Positions 19,393-50,610 of a stretch of DNA of 52,101 nt are shown piece by piece. Under the pieces are notes generated by a model that saw only the letters and a list, made by a program, of their open reading frames with translations, was not told where the DNA came from and searched no databases. This DNA is from SAR86 cluster bacterium (lineage in GTDB: Bacteria; Pseudomonadota; Gammaproteobacteria; Pseudomonadales; Pseudohongiellaceae): contig NVWI01000009.1 of the NCBI GenBank assembly GCA_002746215.1, positions 69,751-121,851 of the forward strand, written 5' to 3'. The stretch's first letter is position 1. Every line of letters starts with the position of its first letter. A program made the position numbers and the translations under genes.

Positions 19393-20454
19393 ATGGCAGA
19401 GCAAGGTTCAAACAGAGAAAAAGCACTTGGCGCAGCGTTAGCGCAAATTGAAAAACAGTTCGGTAAAGGCTCAATGATGCGCATGGGTGATACCGAACGT
19501 GTTGCGATCCCTGCCATATCAACGGGTTCTTTGGGCTTGGATATAGCCTTGGGCATTGGTGGCTTACCAAGGGGGCGTGTTGTTGAAATCTATGGGCCTG
19601 AATCTTCCGGTAAAACGACGCTCACATTACAAGTCATTGCTGAAGCTCAAAAAACCGGTGGCACCTGTGCTTTTATCGATGCTGAACATGCGCTGGATCT
19701 TATATATGCGGAAAATTTGGGTGTGAAAGTTGATGATTTACTGGTAAGTCAGCCAGATACTGGAGAACAAGCGCTGGAAATTTGCGACATGATCGTGCGC
19801 TCTGGCGCGGTTGATGTGGTGGTTATTGACTCGGTAGCTGCGCTGACACCGCGTGCTGAAATTGAAGGTGATATGGGTGACACCCACATGGGCCTCCAGG
19901 CTCGCCTGATGTCTCAAGCCTTGCGTAAAATGGCAGGCAATATCAAAAATTCTAATACGCTGGTTATTTTCATTAATCAGATTCGTATGAAAATCGGCGT
20001 TATGTTTGGTTCTCCTGAAACCACCACTGGCGGTAATGCGCTTAAATTTTATGCCTCGGTACGTTTAGATATCCGTCGCATCGGCGCGATCAAAGACGGC
20101 GATGAAGTGGTGGGTAATGAGACGCGCGTTAAAGTGGTGAAAAATAAAGTGGCACCGCCTTTCAAACAGGTTGAATTTCAAATTTATTACGGCAAAGGTA
20201 TTTCCCGCTTAGGTGAAATTATTGATCTAGGTGTGAAACATGATTTAGTAGAAAAAGCCGGGGCCTGGTATGCCTATAAAGGTGAGAAAATCGGGCAGGG
20301 TAAAAAGAACTCTATTCAATACTTGGAAGAACACCCTGAGATAGCCCAGGAAATTGAAACAACTCTGCGCGAACAGCTTCTCGCCAAGCCGGATAAACCG
20401 GCTAATAGCGATGAGGCTGATGTAACTGAAGAAGCTGTTGCTGCGGGAGAATAA
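19393..20454 (+). CDS. recA: Recombinase RecA
   Basis: Strand-exchange protein and SOS co-protease, 353 residues. The N-terminal polymerisation motif is followed by Walker [14 protein letters not shown] (about residues 67-79), Walker [11 protein letters not shown], the DNA-binding loops [20 protein letters not shown] and [17 protein letters not shown], and [12 protein letters not shown]. The acidic C-terminal tail ([13 protein letters not shown]) is typical. recX follows after 11 bases, forming the usual pair. Confidence 0.99.
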
Positions 20455-20465
20455 GCTCACAGCGT

Positions 20466-20990
20466 GTGAGTATGGGAAACTTAAATAAAAAAGAAAGTAC
20501 TGAAAAGCTTGAAATCACGATTCGTCGTGCTGCAATGGATTTGCTGGCACGGCGAGAACATTCCTTTAAAGAACTAACCCAGAAGTTATCTCGTAGCATC
20601 AGGTGTCAGAGTCATGACTCTGACACCTTTGTCCCTAGGTTTGACGAAGCTGATATCCAGCTTGCGCTGGAAAAACTCCGAGATGAAAATCTGCAATCTG
20701 ACCAGCGCTTTCTTGACGCTTATATTCGTTTTCGCCGCAATAAAGGCTTCGGGCCGTTAAAAATTGAAGCAGAACTTTACCCCAAAGGGCTGGATTCAGA
20801 GCAAATAAGAGCATGCCTTTATGATGAGGAGAATGATTGGGCAGGGCTATGCCGACAGGCTCTGGAAAAACGTTTTCCCGCTTTTAATAAGGAAGACCTT
20901 AAGGAAAAGGCGAAATGTGAGCGTTTTCTGACGCAACGAGGGTTTTCGCATGAGCTTATCAGGAATGCTTTAAGCCAAATTCGTGAATGA
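20466..20990 (+). CDS. recX: Regulatory protein RecX with a palindrome-encoded insertion
   Basis: Negative modulator of RecA filaments. Family features: the N-terminal repeat MDLLARREHSFKELTQKL, then ALEKLRDENLQSDQRFLDAYIRFRRNKGFGPLKIEAELYPKGL (second repeat region; the conserved R-x-x-KGxGPxxI motif is inside), then a third repeat (CERFLTQRGFSHELIRNAL). Length is 174 residues. Between KLSR and RFDEADIQ, where relatives usually have only a few residues, it carries SIRCQSHDSDTFVP. These extra residues are encoded by a copy of a 26-bp palindrome found four more times nearby (see repeats). The insertion keeps the frame. The start is GTG at 20466; the ATG at 20472 is an alternative. Confidence 0.9.
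   Translation: MSMGNLNKKESTEKLEITIRRAAMDLLARREHSFKELTQKLSRSIRCQSHDSDTFVPRFDEADIQLALEKLRDENLQSDQRFLDAYIRFRRNKGFGPLKIEAELYPKGLDSEQIRACLYDEENDWAGLCRQALEKRFPAFNKEDLKEKAKCERFLTQRGFSHELIRNALSQIRE
20602..20627. repeat. 26-bp palindromic element, copy A, inside recX
   Basis: A perfect palindrome: GGTGTCAGAGTCA (20602-20614) followed directly by its reverse complement (20615-20627), with one further A/T pair outside. The flanks ATCA on the left and TTTGTCC on the right are shared with copies C and, in part, D and E, so the mobile or duplicated unit is about 37 bases or more. It lies within the recX coding sequence and is translated. Confidence 0.95.
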
Positions 20991-21008
20991 ATGTTTTAGT
21001 TAATGAAT

Positions 21009-21045
21009 GGGCTGTCCTGCCCCAAGGGGTGAATTTAGCCTTTTG
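21009..21045 (+). terminator. Weak terminator-like hairpin after recX
   Basis: GGCT (21010-21013) can pair with AGCC (21037-21040) around an inner CCCC-AA-GGGG dyad, followed by TTTTGT. The outer stem is short and the inner loop tight, so this is a weak candidate for recX termination. Confidence 0.25.
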
Positions 21046-21096
21046 TATAGGTGTAAAATAATTTGATAAGTGTGTATCTGTGCGTAATAGTGCCTC

Positions 21097-21286
21097 ATGA
21101 AAAGCAAGGATGTTATTTCAAGGTTAAAAAAAGAAGGCTGGCGTAAGGTGGGTGGCAAAGGCGACCATGAGAAGTTTAAACACTTCTCATAGAAAGGGTC
21201 ATGTAATTGTGCCACACCCTAGAAAAGGTATAGCTATCGGAACCTTACGTAACATATATAAACGCAGGTTGGGAGTGGTAAAATGA
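21097..21286 (+). pseudogene. hicA: hicA toxin remnant (frameshifted)
   Basis: HicA-type mRNA interferase toxin with a double-stranded-RNA-binding-like fold. The first frame reads MKSKDVISRLKKEGWRKVGG then KGDHEKFKHFS and stops at TAG 21190-21192. One base out of frame, the rest of the family continues: HRKGHVIVPHPRKGIAIGTL and RNIYKRRLGVVK, ending at TGA 21284-21286. The catalytic-histidine region KGDHEKFKH and the VPHPRKGIAIGTL core are both present but in different frames, so one extra base (or loss of two) near 21183-21189 breaks the gene. The end overlaps the hicB start by ATGA, the normal hicAB coupling. Confidence 0.85.
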
Positions 21287-21676
21287 TCTATCCGGCATAC
21301 GTACATATTAGGTGATAAAAAGTATGCGCATGGAGTGACGCTGCCCGATTTCGATGGATGTTTCTCTGCCGCAGATGATTACGCCGATTTACCCGCGTGT
21401 GTACAAGAAGCCGTTGAATTGCACTTTGAGGGTGAGGCGTTTGAAATGCCCAATCCTTCGGATATAAATGAGCTAGAAAAAACGGGGGAATATGAAGGCG
21501 GCGTCTGGATGTTGGTTAACGTTGATTTAAGTAAATTAGATACTAAGCCCATGCGACTGAATGTGTCTCTTCCAGGACATATAGTAAAACAGATGGATGA
21601 CTTCGCTGCAGAAAATCATCTGACCAGAAGTGCATTAATTGTAAAAGCGACAGAAAACTATCTGAATTCTCATTAA
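21283..21676 (+). pseudogene. hicB: hicB antitoxin remnant (frameshifted near its start)
   Basis: HicB-type antitoxin. The ATG at 21283 overlaps the hicA stop and gives MIYPAYVHIR before TGA at 21313-21315. The family sequence resumes one base off at 21314 with DKKYAHGVTLPDFDGCFSAA and runs open to 21676. It contains the degenerate RNase-H-like HicB fold and a C-terminal ribbon-helix-helix (MRLNVSLPGHIVKQMDDFAA). A GTG at 21335 could still restart translation and give 113 residues lacking the first strand. Both genes of the pair are thus broken independently, so the module looks dead, unless these are sequencing errors. Confidence 0.8.
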
Positions 21677-21692
21677 CAACCTCAGTAGTATC

Positions 21693-21718
21693 GGTGTCAG
21701 AGTCATGACTCTGACACC
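21693..21718. repeat. 26-bp palindromic element, copy B
   Basis: Same perfect 26-base palindrome as in recX, 17 bases after hicB. Here the left flank is GTATC rather than ATCA, and GTATCGG (21688-21694) has an inverted partner CCGATAC at 21741-21747. The position between convergent hicB and the AbrB-type gene would suit a bidirectional terminator, followed by CCTTTCACCTTTTTTC. Confidence 0.95.
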
Positions 21719-21766
21719 TTTCACCTTTTTTCTCAGCTTGCCGATACGTCTACCACATCAAAGGCT

Positions 21767-21985
21767 TTATAGCTCACGATAAGCCTCATCATCAGCTTTT
21801 GAATGCCACTCATGTAAAGTATCGTTCAATGCTGCGGAGAATTCCAACTCAATAGGGGATGCTTTGCGTAATTGGACAACGCTATTTTCAATATCAAAAA
21901 TAACAGAATCACCAGCCTGTAGGTCCAGAATTTTGCGCACCCTTGAGGGGATAGTCGCCTGGTATTTTGCCGTTAACCTGCTCAT
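21767..21985 (-). CDS. AbrB/MazE-type antitoxin, orphan
   Basis: A 72-residue protein with a swapped-hairpin AbrB DNA-binding domain: MSRLTAKYQATIPSRVRKIL, then LDLQAGDSVIFDIENSVVQL. The C-terminal tail is acidic (FSAALNDTLHEWHSKADDEA), like antitoxins that neutralise a partner by the tail. No toxin follows on the minus strand: the space to the left holds only palindrome B and hicB. The gene itself is intact. It may be the survivor of a broken toxin-antitoxin pair or act alone as a repressor. Confidence 0.75.
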   Translation of the reverse strand: MSRLTAKYQATIPSRVRKILDLQAGDSVIFDIENSVVQLRKASPIELEFSAALNDTLHEWHSKADDEAYREL

Positions 21986-22020
21986 GACCTTGCCCTTTCA
22001 ATATAACTTAGAACTCAAGA
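21983..22020. repeat. Imperfect 38-bp repeat, copy 1 (upstream of the AbrB-type gene)
   Basis: This 38-base stretch matches 22699-22736 at 30 of 38 positions by hand alignment, with CTTTCAATATA as the longest shared run. Copy 1 contains the start codon and ribosome-binding region of the AbrB-type gene on the minus strand. Confidence 0.65.
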
Positions 22021-22045
22021 CCCCTTTGCTCAAAGATGACTAATA

Positions 22046-22363
22046 TCAGATGCTAGTGCGGCCCTGCCAATATCCAGGTTTTCGGGAGTGGTGAGCAAAT
22101 GCAATGATTAGTATTCCATCTTCTCGATTTAAAGCAATAATGTCATAAGGGAAGCGTTTTAAAATCAATCGCTTGGTCTCTTTTAATGCATTAGTTTTTT
22201 GAGCCAGAGGGAGGAGTGGGAGCATGCCTTCTTCAATTAAATCTAATCCTGCTTCAAGTGCCTCAGAAAATTCAGCCCCAAGTCCAGCTCTTTCCTTTTC
22301 GTATCATGCAGCTGCTGCGGTGGCTTCCATAACCGCTTCTTCGAGTATACGAACAGTTGGCAT
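22046..22363 (-). pseudogene. ParE/RelE-type toxin inactivated by a stop codon
   Basis: Read on the minus strand from ATG at 22363, the frame gives MPTVRILEEAVMEATAAAA, then TGA at codon 20 (22306-22304), then YEKERAGLGAEFSEALEAGL and on to FAHHSRKPGYWQGR near the end, stopping at 22046. The length (105 codons), the IIALN-x-ILIIAFAHHSRKPGYW ending and the position behind an addiction-module antitoxin fit the RelE/ParE superfamily. Relatives commonly have Trp before the YEKER-like motif, so TGG to TGA is the likely change. The rest of the frame shows no other damage, suggesting recent loss. The start overlaps the antitoxin stop (TAATG). Confidence 0.85.
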
Positions 22364-22599
22364 TATTGTGTGCCGATACTCGCATGCATACGTTGCTTAA
22401 ACTCTGCACGATCAAGCAGTTTTGCCTGTCCAGAATCAATTTGCTTAACTCTGCGTAATAACTCTAGCTCCCAGGCTTCTTCTACGCCTTCATCAGCAGG
22501 GGCATCCAAACTCTGTAAAAGGTCATGGGCCAACTCGGCACGATCTTGCTCTGACAAAGTTAACACCTGAGAGCGTAGTTGTTCTAATGGTCTAGGCAT
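22363..22599 (-). CDS. Addiction-module antitoxin
   Basis: A 78-residue helical protein of the putative addiction-module component family: MPRPLEQLRSQVLTLSEQDR followed by AELAHDLLQSLD and an acidic middle (ADEGVEEAWELELLRRVKQI). It ends RAEFKQRMHASIGTQ. This family pairs with RelE/ParE toxins encoded directly downstream, as here. The partner carries a nonsense codon, so the antitoxin now stands without an active toxin. Confidence 0.85.
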   Translation of the reverse strand: MPRPLEQLRSQVLTLSEQDRAELAHDLLQSLDAPADEGVEEAWELELLRRVKQIDSGQAKLLDRAEFKQRMHASIGTQ

Positions 22600-22698
22600 A
22601 TTTTTTCCCTCTTAGCCTTTGTTATTATTTTATTGTAATCGTTAACTATAGCCCTAACAAGGCGCAAATACGGCGCTTAGGGTGCCGGAAGTCTTACC

Positions 22699-22736
22699 CA
22701 CGGCCTTCTCCTTTCAATATAGTTTAGAATCCAAGA
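22699..22736. repeat. Imperfect 38-bp repeat, copy 2
   Basis: Matches 21983-22020 at 30 of 38 positions by hand alignment. Here it is not followed by a gene on the minus strand, so it may mark the deleted start of another antitoxin gene. Confidence 0.6.
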
Positions 22737-22749
22737 AAGACAAGTATCA

Positions 22750-22775
22750 GGTGTCAGAGTCATGGCTCTGACACC
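22750..22775. repeat. 26-bp palindromic element, copy C
   Basis: Same element with one substitution at the centre (ATGG instead of ATGA), so the palindrome is imperfect by one pair. The flanks ATCA and TTTGTCC equal those of copy A in recX. Confidence 0.95.
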
Positions 22776-22832
22776 TTTGTCCTGCTAGACTTTCTCTGAC
22801 AAGAAAAGAGCCGAGTGCTATTATTGGCATCA

Positions 22833-22858
22833 GGTGTCAGAGTCATGACTCTGACACC
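22833..22858. repeat. 26-bp palindromic element, copy D
   Basis: Perfect copy, 53 bases upstream of the rfaH-like start codon, with the left flank GCATCA and right flank TTTGT. With copy C it forms a closely spaced pair, as REP-like elements often do. Confidence 0.95.
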
Positions 22859-22910
22859 TTTGTTGACACCTCTGCCGCATTTAGACCTGAGCTGGAGCAA
22901 AAAGGAAGCT

Positions 22911-23417
22911 ATGCAAAACTGGCACCTGTTATTAAGCAAGCCAAGAGAAGAGCTTAGGGCTGAAGAGCAGCTTCGTAATCAGGGCTTTAAGGTCTTTCAC
23001 CCTTTGTTAAAGCACTATAAGTTAAAACAGGGTAAGCAAAAATCTATTATCGAATCGTTATTTCCGCGTTATCTGTTTATTCAACTGGATGATGAGCTTA
23101 ATGACTGGAGCACTATCCGCTCAACACGAGGCGTTGCAGAACTGGTTCGATTTACTGACTATCCAGCGGTTGTGCCAGAGTCAGTGGTCAATGATTTATT
23201 AAAGCAAGTTAATGAAGAAGGGCTTATTGATCAAACCCAACAAGAAACTCGCCTGTTTAAACCCGGAGACAGAGTGGAAATCAGAGAAGGAAGTTTTAAA
23301 GGCTGGCAAGGTGTTGTTAAAGAGCAGGATAGCGATATGCGCGTTGTTTTATTATTAAAAATGCTGGGCAGGGAGCAGTCATTACAAATCCCTTTAGCTG
23401 AAATTAAAGCAATTTGA
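22911..23417 (+). CDS. rfaH: RfaH-type transcription antitermination protein
   Basis: NusG paralogue that loads on RNA polymerase paused at ops sites and suppresses pausing and termination in long polysaccharide operons. The 168-residue protein begins MQNWHLLLSKPREELRAEEQ. It has the NGN domain motif ESLFPRYLFIQLDDELNDW and TRGVAELVRF as in RfaH. The C-terminal part is a KOW-type segment (KPGDRVEIREGSFKGWQGVV). I chose the ATG at 22911 because the RfaH N-terminus starts there and AAGGA precedes it. An upstream in-frame extension to 22815 would run through palindrome D and lacks family similarity. The gene sits 172 bases before a perfect ops element that starts the polysaccharide locus. Confidence 0.93.
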   Translation: MQNWHLLLSKPREELRAEEQLRNQGFKVFHPLLKHYKLKQGKQKSIIESLFPRYLFIQLDDELNDWSTIRSTRGVAELVRFTDYPAVVPESVVNDLLKQVNEEGLIDQTQQETRLFKPGDRVEIREGSFKGWQGVVKEQDSDMRVVLLLKMLGREQSLQIPLAEIKAI

Positions 23418-23459
23418 CGTAAAGTAATTCAATTCTTTTCATTCCAAAATATAGCATCA

Positions 23460-23485
23460 GGTGTCAGAGTCATGACTCTGACACC
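23460..23485. repeat. 26-bp palindromic element, copy E
   Basis: Perfect copy between rfaH and the polysaccharide promoter. The left flank TAGCATCA equals that of copy A; the right flank is ATTACC. It could insulate the two transcription units, but there is no T-run after it. Confidence 0.95.
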
Positions 23486-23513
23486 ATTACCCTTCTGTTG
23501 CTCATTTAATCTT

Positions 23514-49477: not shown

Positions 49478-50608
49478 ATGAAAATATTAATTAATATGAA
49501 TGAAAAAGATCGAAACATACATGTAGCGGTTATTGGTGGAGGTATTTTTGGCTGTCTTATATCGACGGAGTTGGCCCGCAGAGGGTGCTCAGTTAATTTA
49601 TATGAAAGAAATTCTGAGATTATGATTGGAGCGTCCCTAAATAACCAGAACCGCTTGCATCTTGGGTACCACTATCCTCGAGATGATAATACTGCTCGGC
49701 AATGTATTAAAGGTTTCGATAGGTTTAAATCAGCGTTCTCGAATTGTATTTTGAGCGATTTCCACAATAACTATTATATCTCGGCAAGAGATTCAAAAGT
49801 TTCCATGCGCGAATATGAAACGTTTTGTCGTAGGGTAGGATTGCCGGTGTCTCCAGTTTCGGATACTTCCCCCGTAGAGGTGCGGAATGTAGTGGGTGGG
49901 TTATCTACAAATGAGGCGGTGTACGATAGCCGACTGTTGGCAAAAGAAATTAAACGCTTATTCTCTCAATCAAATGTCAACGTTTTTTGCAACCATGATA
50001 TAGCAGGTGTAAATAAGAGTGATTCAGGTAAGTTTATACTCAATTCAGGTGATGTTGACGTTGGCGCGTTTGATAAAGTAATTAATTGCACCTATGTAAA
50101 CTACAACAAATTCAATAAAGACTTAGGTCTCGAAGACCAATTACTACAATATGAATATACACTGGTTCCGATAATCAAATGGCTTGATTCGCCTATTGGA
50201 ATAACAATCATGGATGGAGATTTTATGACTGTGCTCCCATATGGTTTGTCAGATAACTCCTTGTTATATCATGTTAAACATACTGTAATTGAATCTGAAA
50301 TATCCCATAATTTAAATGAAGCCTGGCTTTCCAAATCTAGTTCTCCTGCGAATTACATTGATAAGAACCTTCATTTTAAAAAAATGTTAGAAGCTTGTGT
50401 CGAGTTTGTTCCCGAGCTTTCAACTGCAGAATTAGTAGGTTTTTTGGAGGGGCCAAGAGTTGTGTTTTCGGGCAATGACTCGACCGACGAGAGACCTTCG
50501 GTAATTAATACGCTTGACAAAGATGGGTTTTTCTCAGTCTTTTCTGGAAAAATTGATCATTCTATTTGGGTTGCTGATCAAGTTGCTGATTTAGTCATCG
50601 ATGACTAA
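49478..50608 (+). CDS. FAD-dependent oxidoreductase (DAO-like)
   Basis: A 376-residue flavoprotein with the N-terminal dinucleotide-binding motif VAVIGGGIFGCLISTELARR (about residues 15-34) and a second FAD-contact region SLNNQNRLHLGYHYPRDDN. The fold is that of the D-amino acid oxidase/GlpD superfamily. Its substrate is not recognisable. The start could be ATG 49478 or 49496. It ends just before a galE remnant. Such genes occur at polysaccharide loci, where they may oxidise a sugar or side group, but this is inference. Confidence 0.75.
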   Translation: MKILINMNEKDRNIHVAVIGGGIFGCLISTELARRGCSVNLYERNSEIMIGASLNNQNRLHLGYHYPRDDNTARQCIKGFDRFKSAFSNCILSDFHNNYYISARDSKVSMREYETFCRRVGLPVSPVSDTSPVEVRNVVGGLSTNEAVYDSRLLAKEIKRLFSQSNVNVFCNHDIAGVNKSDSGKFILNSGDVDVGAFDKVINCTYVNYNKFNKDLGLEDQLLQYEYTLVPIIKWLDSPIGITIMDGDFMTVLPYGLSDNSLLYHVKHTVIESEISHNLNEAWLSKSSSPANYIDKNLHFKKMLEACVEFVPELSTAELVGFLEGPRVVFSGNDSTDERPSVINTLDKDGFFSVFSGKIDHSIWVADQVADLVIDD

Positions 50609-50610
50609 AT

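Follow-up and report, generated by a model that had tools for sequence, protein, structure and literature searches.

An in-frame palindromic repeat in recX of a SAR86 cluster bacterium, absent from its relatives and probably derived from a RAYT-linked repeat family

A small palindromic repeat has entered the recX gene of this SAR86 cluster bacterium in frame, and it is missing from the recX genes of relatives. The window, that is, the whole 52,101-nucleotide stretch that was analysed, lies on contig C14 of a 3.13-Mb assembly of 22 contigs. The recX segment is quite probably the collapsed short form of a nonautonomous inverted-repeat family linked to a REP-associated tyrosine transposase (RAYT) gene; recX would have received a copy of a unit of about 41 nt and kept it in a variable loop.

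The open reading frame at 20466 to 20990 encodes RecX. Its product matched the Pfam domains RecX_HTH1, HTH2, and HTH3, all above cut-off, and 14 RecX models of NCBIfam, all under their own curated cut-offs (best E value, 1.8e-35). The frame that directly precedes it (19393 to 20454) looks by eye like recA. The original prediction placed a perfect 26-bp palindrome at 20602 to 20627; the palindrome is real, but it is 28 bp long and perfect over positions 20601 to 20628. About 14 residues were predicted to be added between KLSR and RFDEADIQ, and the alignment with relatives confirmed an in-frame insertion of 42 nt that adds the 14 residues SIRCQSHDSDTFVP between KLSR and RFDEAD. The features at the site are as follows.

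20466 to 20990, forward strand: recX open reading frame, 174 amino acids, open throughout and bearing the insertion (Pfam and NCBIfam profile matches)
20594 to 20638, forward strand: 42-nt in-frame insertion encoding SIRCQSHDSDTFVP (alignment of relatives and six-frame reading of the unit)
20601 to 20628, no strand assigned: palindrome copy P1, perfect over 28 bp, within recX (palindrome search)

Since a TAG stands at both ends, the limits of the insertion are ambiguous, from 20594-20635 to 20597-20638. Three of the six possible reading frames of the 42-nt unit are free of stops, and the open recX frame therefore requires no special design. In RNA, P1 forms a hairpin with a stem of 12 bp (-19.3 kcal/mol; z, -5.2). 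When the mononucleotides of the window were shuffled 30 times, perfect palindromes reached 20 bp at most, compared to the 28 bp observed. With up to 3 mismatches, the palindrome was found at 10 places in the bacterium's own genome, and the reversed-pattern control was found at none. The shuffles and this control exclude a chance origin of the palindrome.

The RecX search matched 33 of the 37 genomes, the bacterium's own included, and 29 relatives were fetched, with G010, G013, and G029 left out. The insertion site is covered by 28 of these relatives (L038 does not cover it and was excluded), and the inserted residues were absent from all 28. In three of the four genus-mates (G002, G003, and G004), RecX is exactly 14 residues shorter than that of the window. 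The loop has 20 residues in these genus-mates and 34 in the window, so the insertion amounts to 42 nt. The RecX search gave no match in the fourth genus-mate, G001. A gammaproteobacterial metagenome-assembled genome (MAG), G671, bears the palindrome elsewhere and has a recX gene without the insert. These alignments are the check that the original prediction had proposed; relatives carrying the same residues, or a family alignment without an insertion, would have spoken against it, and neither was encountered.

By sequence comparison to the solved structures 3dfg and 3c1d, the insert maps to the first repeat of RecX, at a position that we take to lie between the second and third helices. The loop at this position has between 20 and 47 residues in the 28 relatives, and phmmer alignments show more residues there in the solved RecX 3c1d than in 3dfg. 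A more distant RecX (L033, from G034) has 47 residues in this loop, compared to 20 in the genus-mates, owing to a long, unrelated expansion enriched in Q, S, and F. The pN/pS ratio of recX was 0.16 against G003 and 0.19 against G004, values that span the whole divergence and not just the time since the insertion. Relative-rate counts (14 versus 9 and 10 versus 4) were higher in the window lineage but not significantly so (chi2 of 1.1 and 2.6). An AlphaFold model built from the RecX sequence alone was of low quality (mean pLDDT of 53, with values below 50 at residues 41 to 58, which include the insert, and at 1 to 10, 106 to 123, and 125 to 128) and was given no weight. Tolerance of the 14-residue insert, favoured by its loop position and by purifying selection, is the likeliest outcome, and RecX presumably still works despite it.

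Altered SOS and recombination control was the other outcome raised in the original prediction. We consider it unlikely that the insertion alters RecX, with the mRNA hairpin or the 14 residues reducing its amount or activity and so loosening the control of RecA. The strength of the RNA hairpin, which makes an effect on expression conceivable, and the nonsignificant tilt of the relative-rate counts toward more change in the window lineage point in this direction, and Di Nocera et al. (PMC3733652) speculate that REPs inserted into repair genes could play a part in the origin of mutator organisms. However, the insert sits in a loop of variable length, the remainder of recX is conserved, and the scan did not call the hairpin terminator-like. 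A broader proposal, that RAYT-linked palindromes enter repair and recombination genes above chance and that the recX insert tunes RecA control in a selected or reversible manner via its mRNA hairpin or the lengthened loop, seems to us very improbable. If true, it would tie a single-strand nuclease system to host recombination control.

The palindrome in recX is one of five copies within 2.9 kb (20594 to 23499), all in the same orientation and with common nonpalindromic flanks. The match between the recX flanks and nearby copies was part of the original prediction, and it holds for the four further copies of the window, which are listed below.

21693 to 21718, no strand assigned: palindrome copy P2, perfect over 26 bp, just 3' of a HicB-like open reading frame
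22749 to 22776, no strand assigned: palindrome copy P3, one mismatch, intergenic
22832 to 22859, no strand assigned: palindrome copy P4, perfect over 28 bp, upstream of rfaH in the 5' extension of the rfaH frame
23460 to 23485, no strand assigned: palindrome copy P5, perfect over 26 bp, downstream of rfaH

The RfaH match starts downstream of P4. In the five copies, the flanked unit reads roughly TAGyATCAG-palindrome-CTTTGTCC and is about 41 nt long; this extended unit was found in the recX cluster only. The interval between recX and rfaH (20990 to 22610) contains parts of toxin-antitoxin modules, namely, a HicA split over two frames, the HicB-like frame, a MazE-like antitoxin, and an Unstab_antitox frame, and palindromes lie near the borders of these modules. 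In G003 and G004, an rfaH/nusG-like gene follows closely after recX, as read by eye. Another perfect palindrome, of 22 bp (ATTTAGTCATCGATGACTAAAT), is present at 50589 to 50610 of the window.

The half-site of the palindrome, GGTGTCAGAGTMA (13 nt, exact), occurs 86 times in the bacterium's own genome, compared to a chance expectation of about 0.2 for 3.1 Mb (by arithmetic). In the genus scans, which took in five genomes, it was found 20 times in G002, once in G001, and not at all in G003 and G004, and the reversed-pattern control gave 0 matches in all five. Of the 73 half-sites located in the fetched stretches, 44 are members of pairs that form inverted-repeat elements of 94 to 98 nt, and the own genome has 23 distinct elements of this kind. 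Across these 23, the commonest base has a mean share of 0.96 to 0.97 over the 15 nt at the ends and of 0.60 in the middle part. The element ends, GGTGTCAGAGTAAA and TTTACTCTGACACC, are not palindromic alone and, as judged by eye, have no GTAG foot; the hairpin sequence of the repeat is GGTGTCAGAGT.

The distribution of the repeat is narrow. With up to 3 mismatches, the palindrome was found seven times in G002 and was absent from G001, G003, and G004. With up to 2 mismatches, it was missing from the other 292 genomes sampled from the order (293 with the own genome), and exact half-sites with a spacer of 2 to 24 were absent from 368 other sampled genomes of the class (369 with the own genome). 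The exact 26-mer was found at three loci in genome_contigs, a scan from which records of the own genome were possibly omitted. Two of these loci are in MAG UBA5109 and have flanks equal to those of G002 loci, and the third (L064:5195-5220) lies 10 nt past a groEL-like open reading frame in another gammaproteobacterial MAG, whose recX lacks the insert and which gave no match to the RAYT described below. Two of the 10 places of the palindrome in the own genome, on contigs C4 and C17, sit in what is seemingly one duplicated stretch. Between C4:153302-170240 and C17:594869-611807, the repeat positions and the sequences read correspond in inverted order, and this correspondence is either a real duplication or strain redundancy of the assembly.

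The own genome has three Y1 transposase genes, and a half-site lies near only one of them, L040. Its 232-amino-acid product matches the RAYT model NCBIfam NF047646 with 80.9 bits against a cut-off of 80 and also matches Pfam Y1_Tnp. One 94- to 98-nt element lies just upstream of L040, and another overlaps its 3' end; the gene is bordered by AGGTGTCAGAGTAAA / TTTACTCTGACACC pairs, the second of which makes this overlap. Both flanks hold an inverted pair, and as whole units they are direct repeats (84% over 43 nt). No half-site with up to 2 mismatches was found near L039, which is 45% identical to L040, or near L041. The only Y1 transposase of G002, where the palindromes are present, was distant (29% identity) and had near it just one half-site, with two mismatches, and in G671, which has the exact palindrome, there was no match to the L040 RAYT at an E value of 0.001. 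The palindrome family is tied to the RAYT gene through shared sequence, and this RAYT may have mobilised it. Because a RAYT gene of the same genome is bordered by the same half-sites, the repeat is closer to RAYT/REP-type elements than to Rickettsia palindromic elements. We describe it as a narrowly distributed RAYT-linked repeat family without the usual GTAG foot.

Other coding genes were searched for the palindrome, as the original prediction had suggested. Among the sites read in the own genome and in G002, no recognisable gene other than recX carries an interior insertion, and the other repeats lie at or near gene ends. In the own genome, 73 of the 86 half-sites were read against open reading frames of at least 120 amino acids with both ends inside the stretches of about 2.5 to 5.8 kb, so that genes running off a stretch could escape; the remaining 13 (the window cluster, L042, L048, and L049) were read separately. 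The reading that covered the 73 comprised 74 half-sites in all, one of them from G001. For G002, 10 of the 12 palindromic copies were covered, as were 15 of the 20 half-sites. No stop-free frame of more than 100 codons contains any of the 26 long pairs, which are the 23 distinct elements and three longer nested readings. Ten stop-free frames of 91 to 620 codons span or overlap copies in L050, L060, L064, L068, L069, L070, L090, L100, and L106. Only the 620-codon frame has a Pfam match, an AI-2E transporter domain (274 to 592) that starts past the copy at codon 222. An element in L128 reaches into the first codons of an open reading frame, for which a later start is likely. A candidate second interior insertion in L110, a PBP-superfamily protein, was rejected as a chance match in PGVRVTVG. 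Six distinct genes of the own genome (at L111, L115, L116, L122, and L138) and two of G002 (L086 and L096) end in -VSE-stop because the half-site of the repeat supplies the TAA.

The sequence of events that we propose starts from a long element that would have collapsed to a short palindrome, leaving two inverted half-sites without a long spacer. The RAYT, by family an HUH single-strand DNA nuclease, would have moved the unit, and a copy of the locally multiplied 41-nt form would have inserted into recX. The insertion could be retained because it is a multiple of three bases, is free of stops in the frame used, and falls within a loop of variable length. Because the extended unit is limited to the recX cluster, simple local duplication explains the last step equally well: the unit would have arisen once near rfaH and been copied to nearby places when replication slipped or switched templates between hairpins, without a transposase. 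The crowding of five copies into 2.9 kb in one orientation, with flanks unseen in the other copies of the genome, agrees with this course. We nevertheless regard it as possible but somewhat doubtful, as adjacent copies lie about 0.6 to 1.1 kb apart in three cases out of four, the parent family is dispersed genome-wide, and strand-biased single-strand transposition would likewise yield one orientation. Local duplication affects the last step alone and is compatible with the family assignment.

It is also conceivable that the 14 residues are an ancestral part of RecX or arose in it by chance expansion, the palindrome being a coincidence or the binding site of a regulator. The length of the loop does vary in distant RecX proteins, as in L033, but a perfect 28-bp palindrome whose flanks resemble those of four copies outside recX, at a site that is empty in three genus-mates, makes an explanation of this kind almost certainly wrong. 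An operator or terminator as the main reading was rejected, as the flanks are common to the copies beyond the symmetry and no terminator-like call was made at the palindromes. A viral origin (0 exact matches in viral_contigs) and a CRISPR array (irregular spacing of the copies) were rejected as well. A collapsed member of the RAYT-linked family, carried into recX, is the explanation that we prefer.

Palindromic repeats within coding genes have precedents. The original prediction regarded an in-frame palindrome as rare in gammaproteobacteria, which the published cases contradict: the text of Di Nocera et al. (2013, PMC3733652) describes REPs of the GTAG and CGTC superfamilies inside open reading frames of several species, many of which act in replication or repair; recB of Xanthomonas campestris and X. 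oryzae and uvrA of Thioalkalivibrio are examples from two gammaproteobacterial genera. As in the cases that this text describes, the palindrome here is short and lies wholly within an open reading frame; such frames are often replication or repair genes and at times the only tagged gene of a species. Repeats that give stop codons to neighbouring genes are likewise described there, GTAG REPs often providing TAG stops. In contrast to these REPs, the stem here has no GTAG or CGTC directly before it. A typical GTAG REP has GTAG or GTGG directly at the foot of a hairpin of about 20 to 40 bp. The length is matched here by the 28-bp palindrome and its 12-bp RNA stem, whereas such a foot is lacking: by eye, P1 and P2 have GTAG 4 bases off the stem, P3 to P5 have AAG, TGG, and ATAG there, and the other copies inspected have no GTAG at the hairpin foot.

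The family also resembles REPINs and REPtrons with RAYT/TnpAREP, as described in PMC2817692, PMC3116915, and PMC6006769 (2018), in that a transposase gene is bordered by repeats that are also dispersed as inverted pairs. REPINs keep their length while the middle varies (Bertels and Rainey 2011, PMC3116915), and the 23 elements described here are likewise inverted pairs of nearly fixed total length with a variable middle. In a REPIN, both ends are REPs in their own right, whereas the ends here are nonpalindromic and without GTAG. In the wide sense of a REPtron, a RAYT-associated family is one whose RAYT gene is flanked by the same repeats, as is L040. However, the half-site is not a GTAG-footed hairpin, and the units beside L040 are direct, one of them overlapping its 3' end. 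The two flanking REPs described by Nunvar (2010, PMC2817692) are inverted. At L040, each flank is itself an inverted pair, and the flanks taken whole are direct. In the same REPIN and REPtron papers, symmetrical palindromes are expected from central deletion between inverted repeats, and in-frame REP insertions in tnpAREP genes are on record.

The likeness to Rickettsia palindromic elements (RPEs) that the original prediction drew is apt, as both are palindromic DNA within protein-coding genes and the recX case is an in-frame insertion in an otherwise conserved protein with an empty site in relatives. RPEs occur in many different genes, whereas recX is the sole interior case among the sites read in the own genome and G002. 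According to Di Nocera et al. (PMC3733652), RPE-4 and RPE-6 are the elements that the intragenic repeats of R. conorii match, and RPE-1 has a greater length. The 42-nt, single-gene, RAYT-linked insertion is set apart from RPEs by this description and not by sequence comparison. The repeat sequence and the recX site were not found in the literature searched, and recX is not among the genes named for intragenic REPs in the consulted passages of PMC3733652. The recX insertion leaves current understanding unaltered. It is a further instance of the published in-frame REP and RPE insertions, well bounded and with a clear empty site in genus-mates, which adds to the palindromes in DNA repair and recombination genes, and it comes with a RAYT-linked family that, without a GTAG foot, gives stop codons to several genes.
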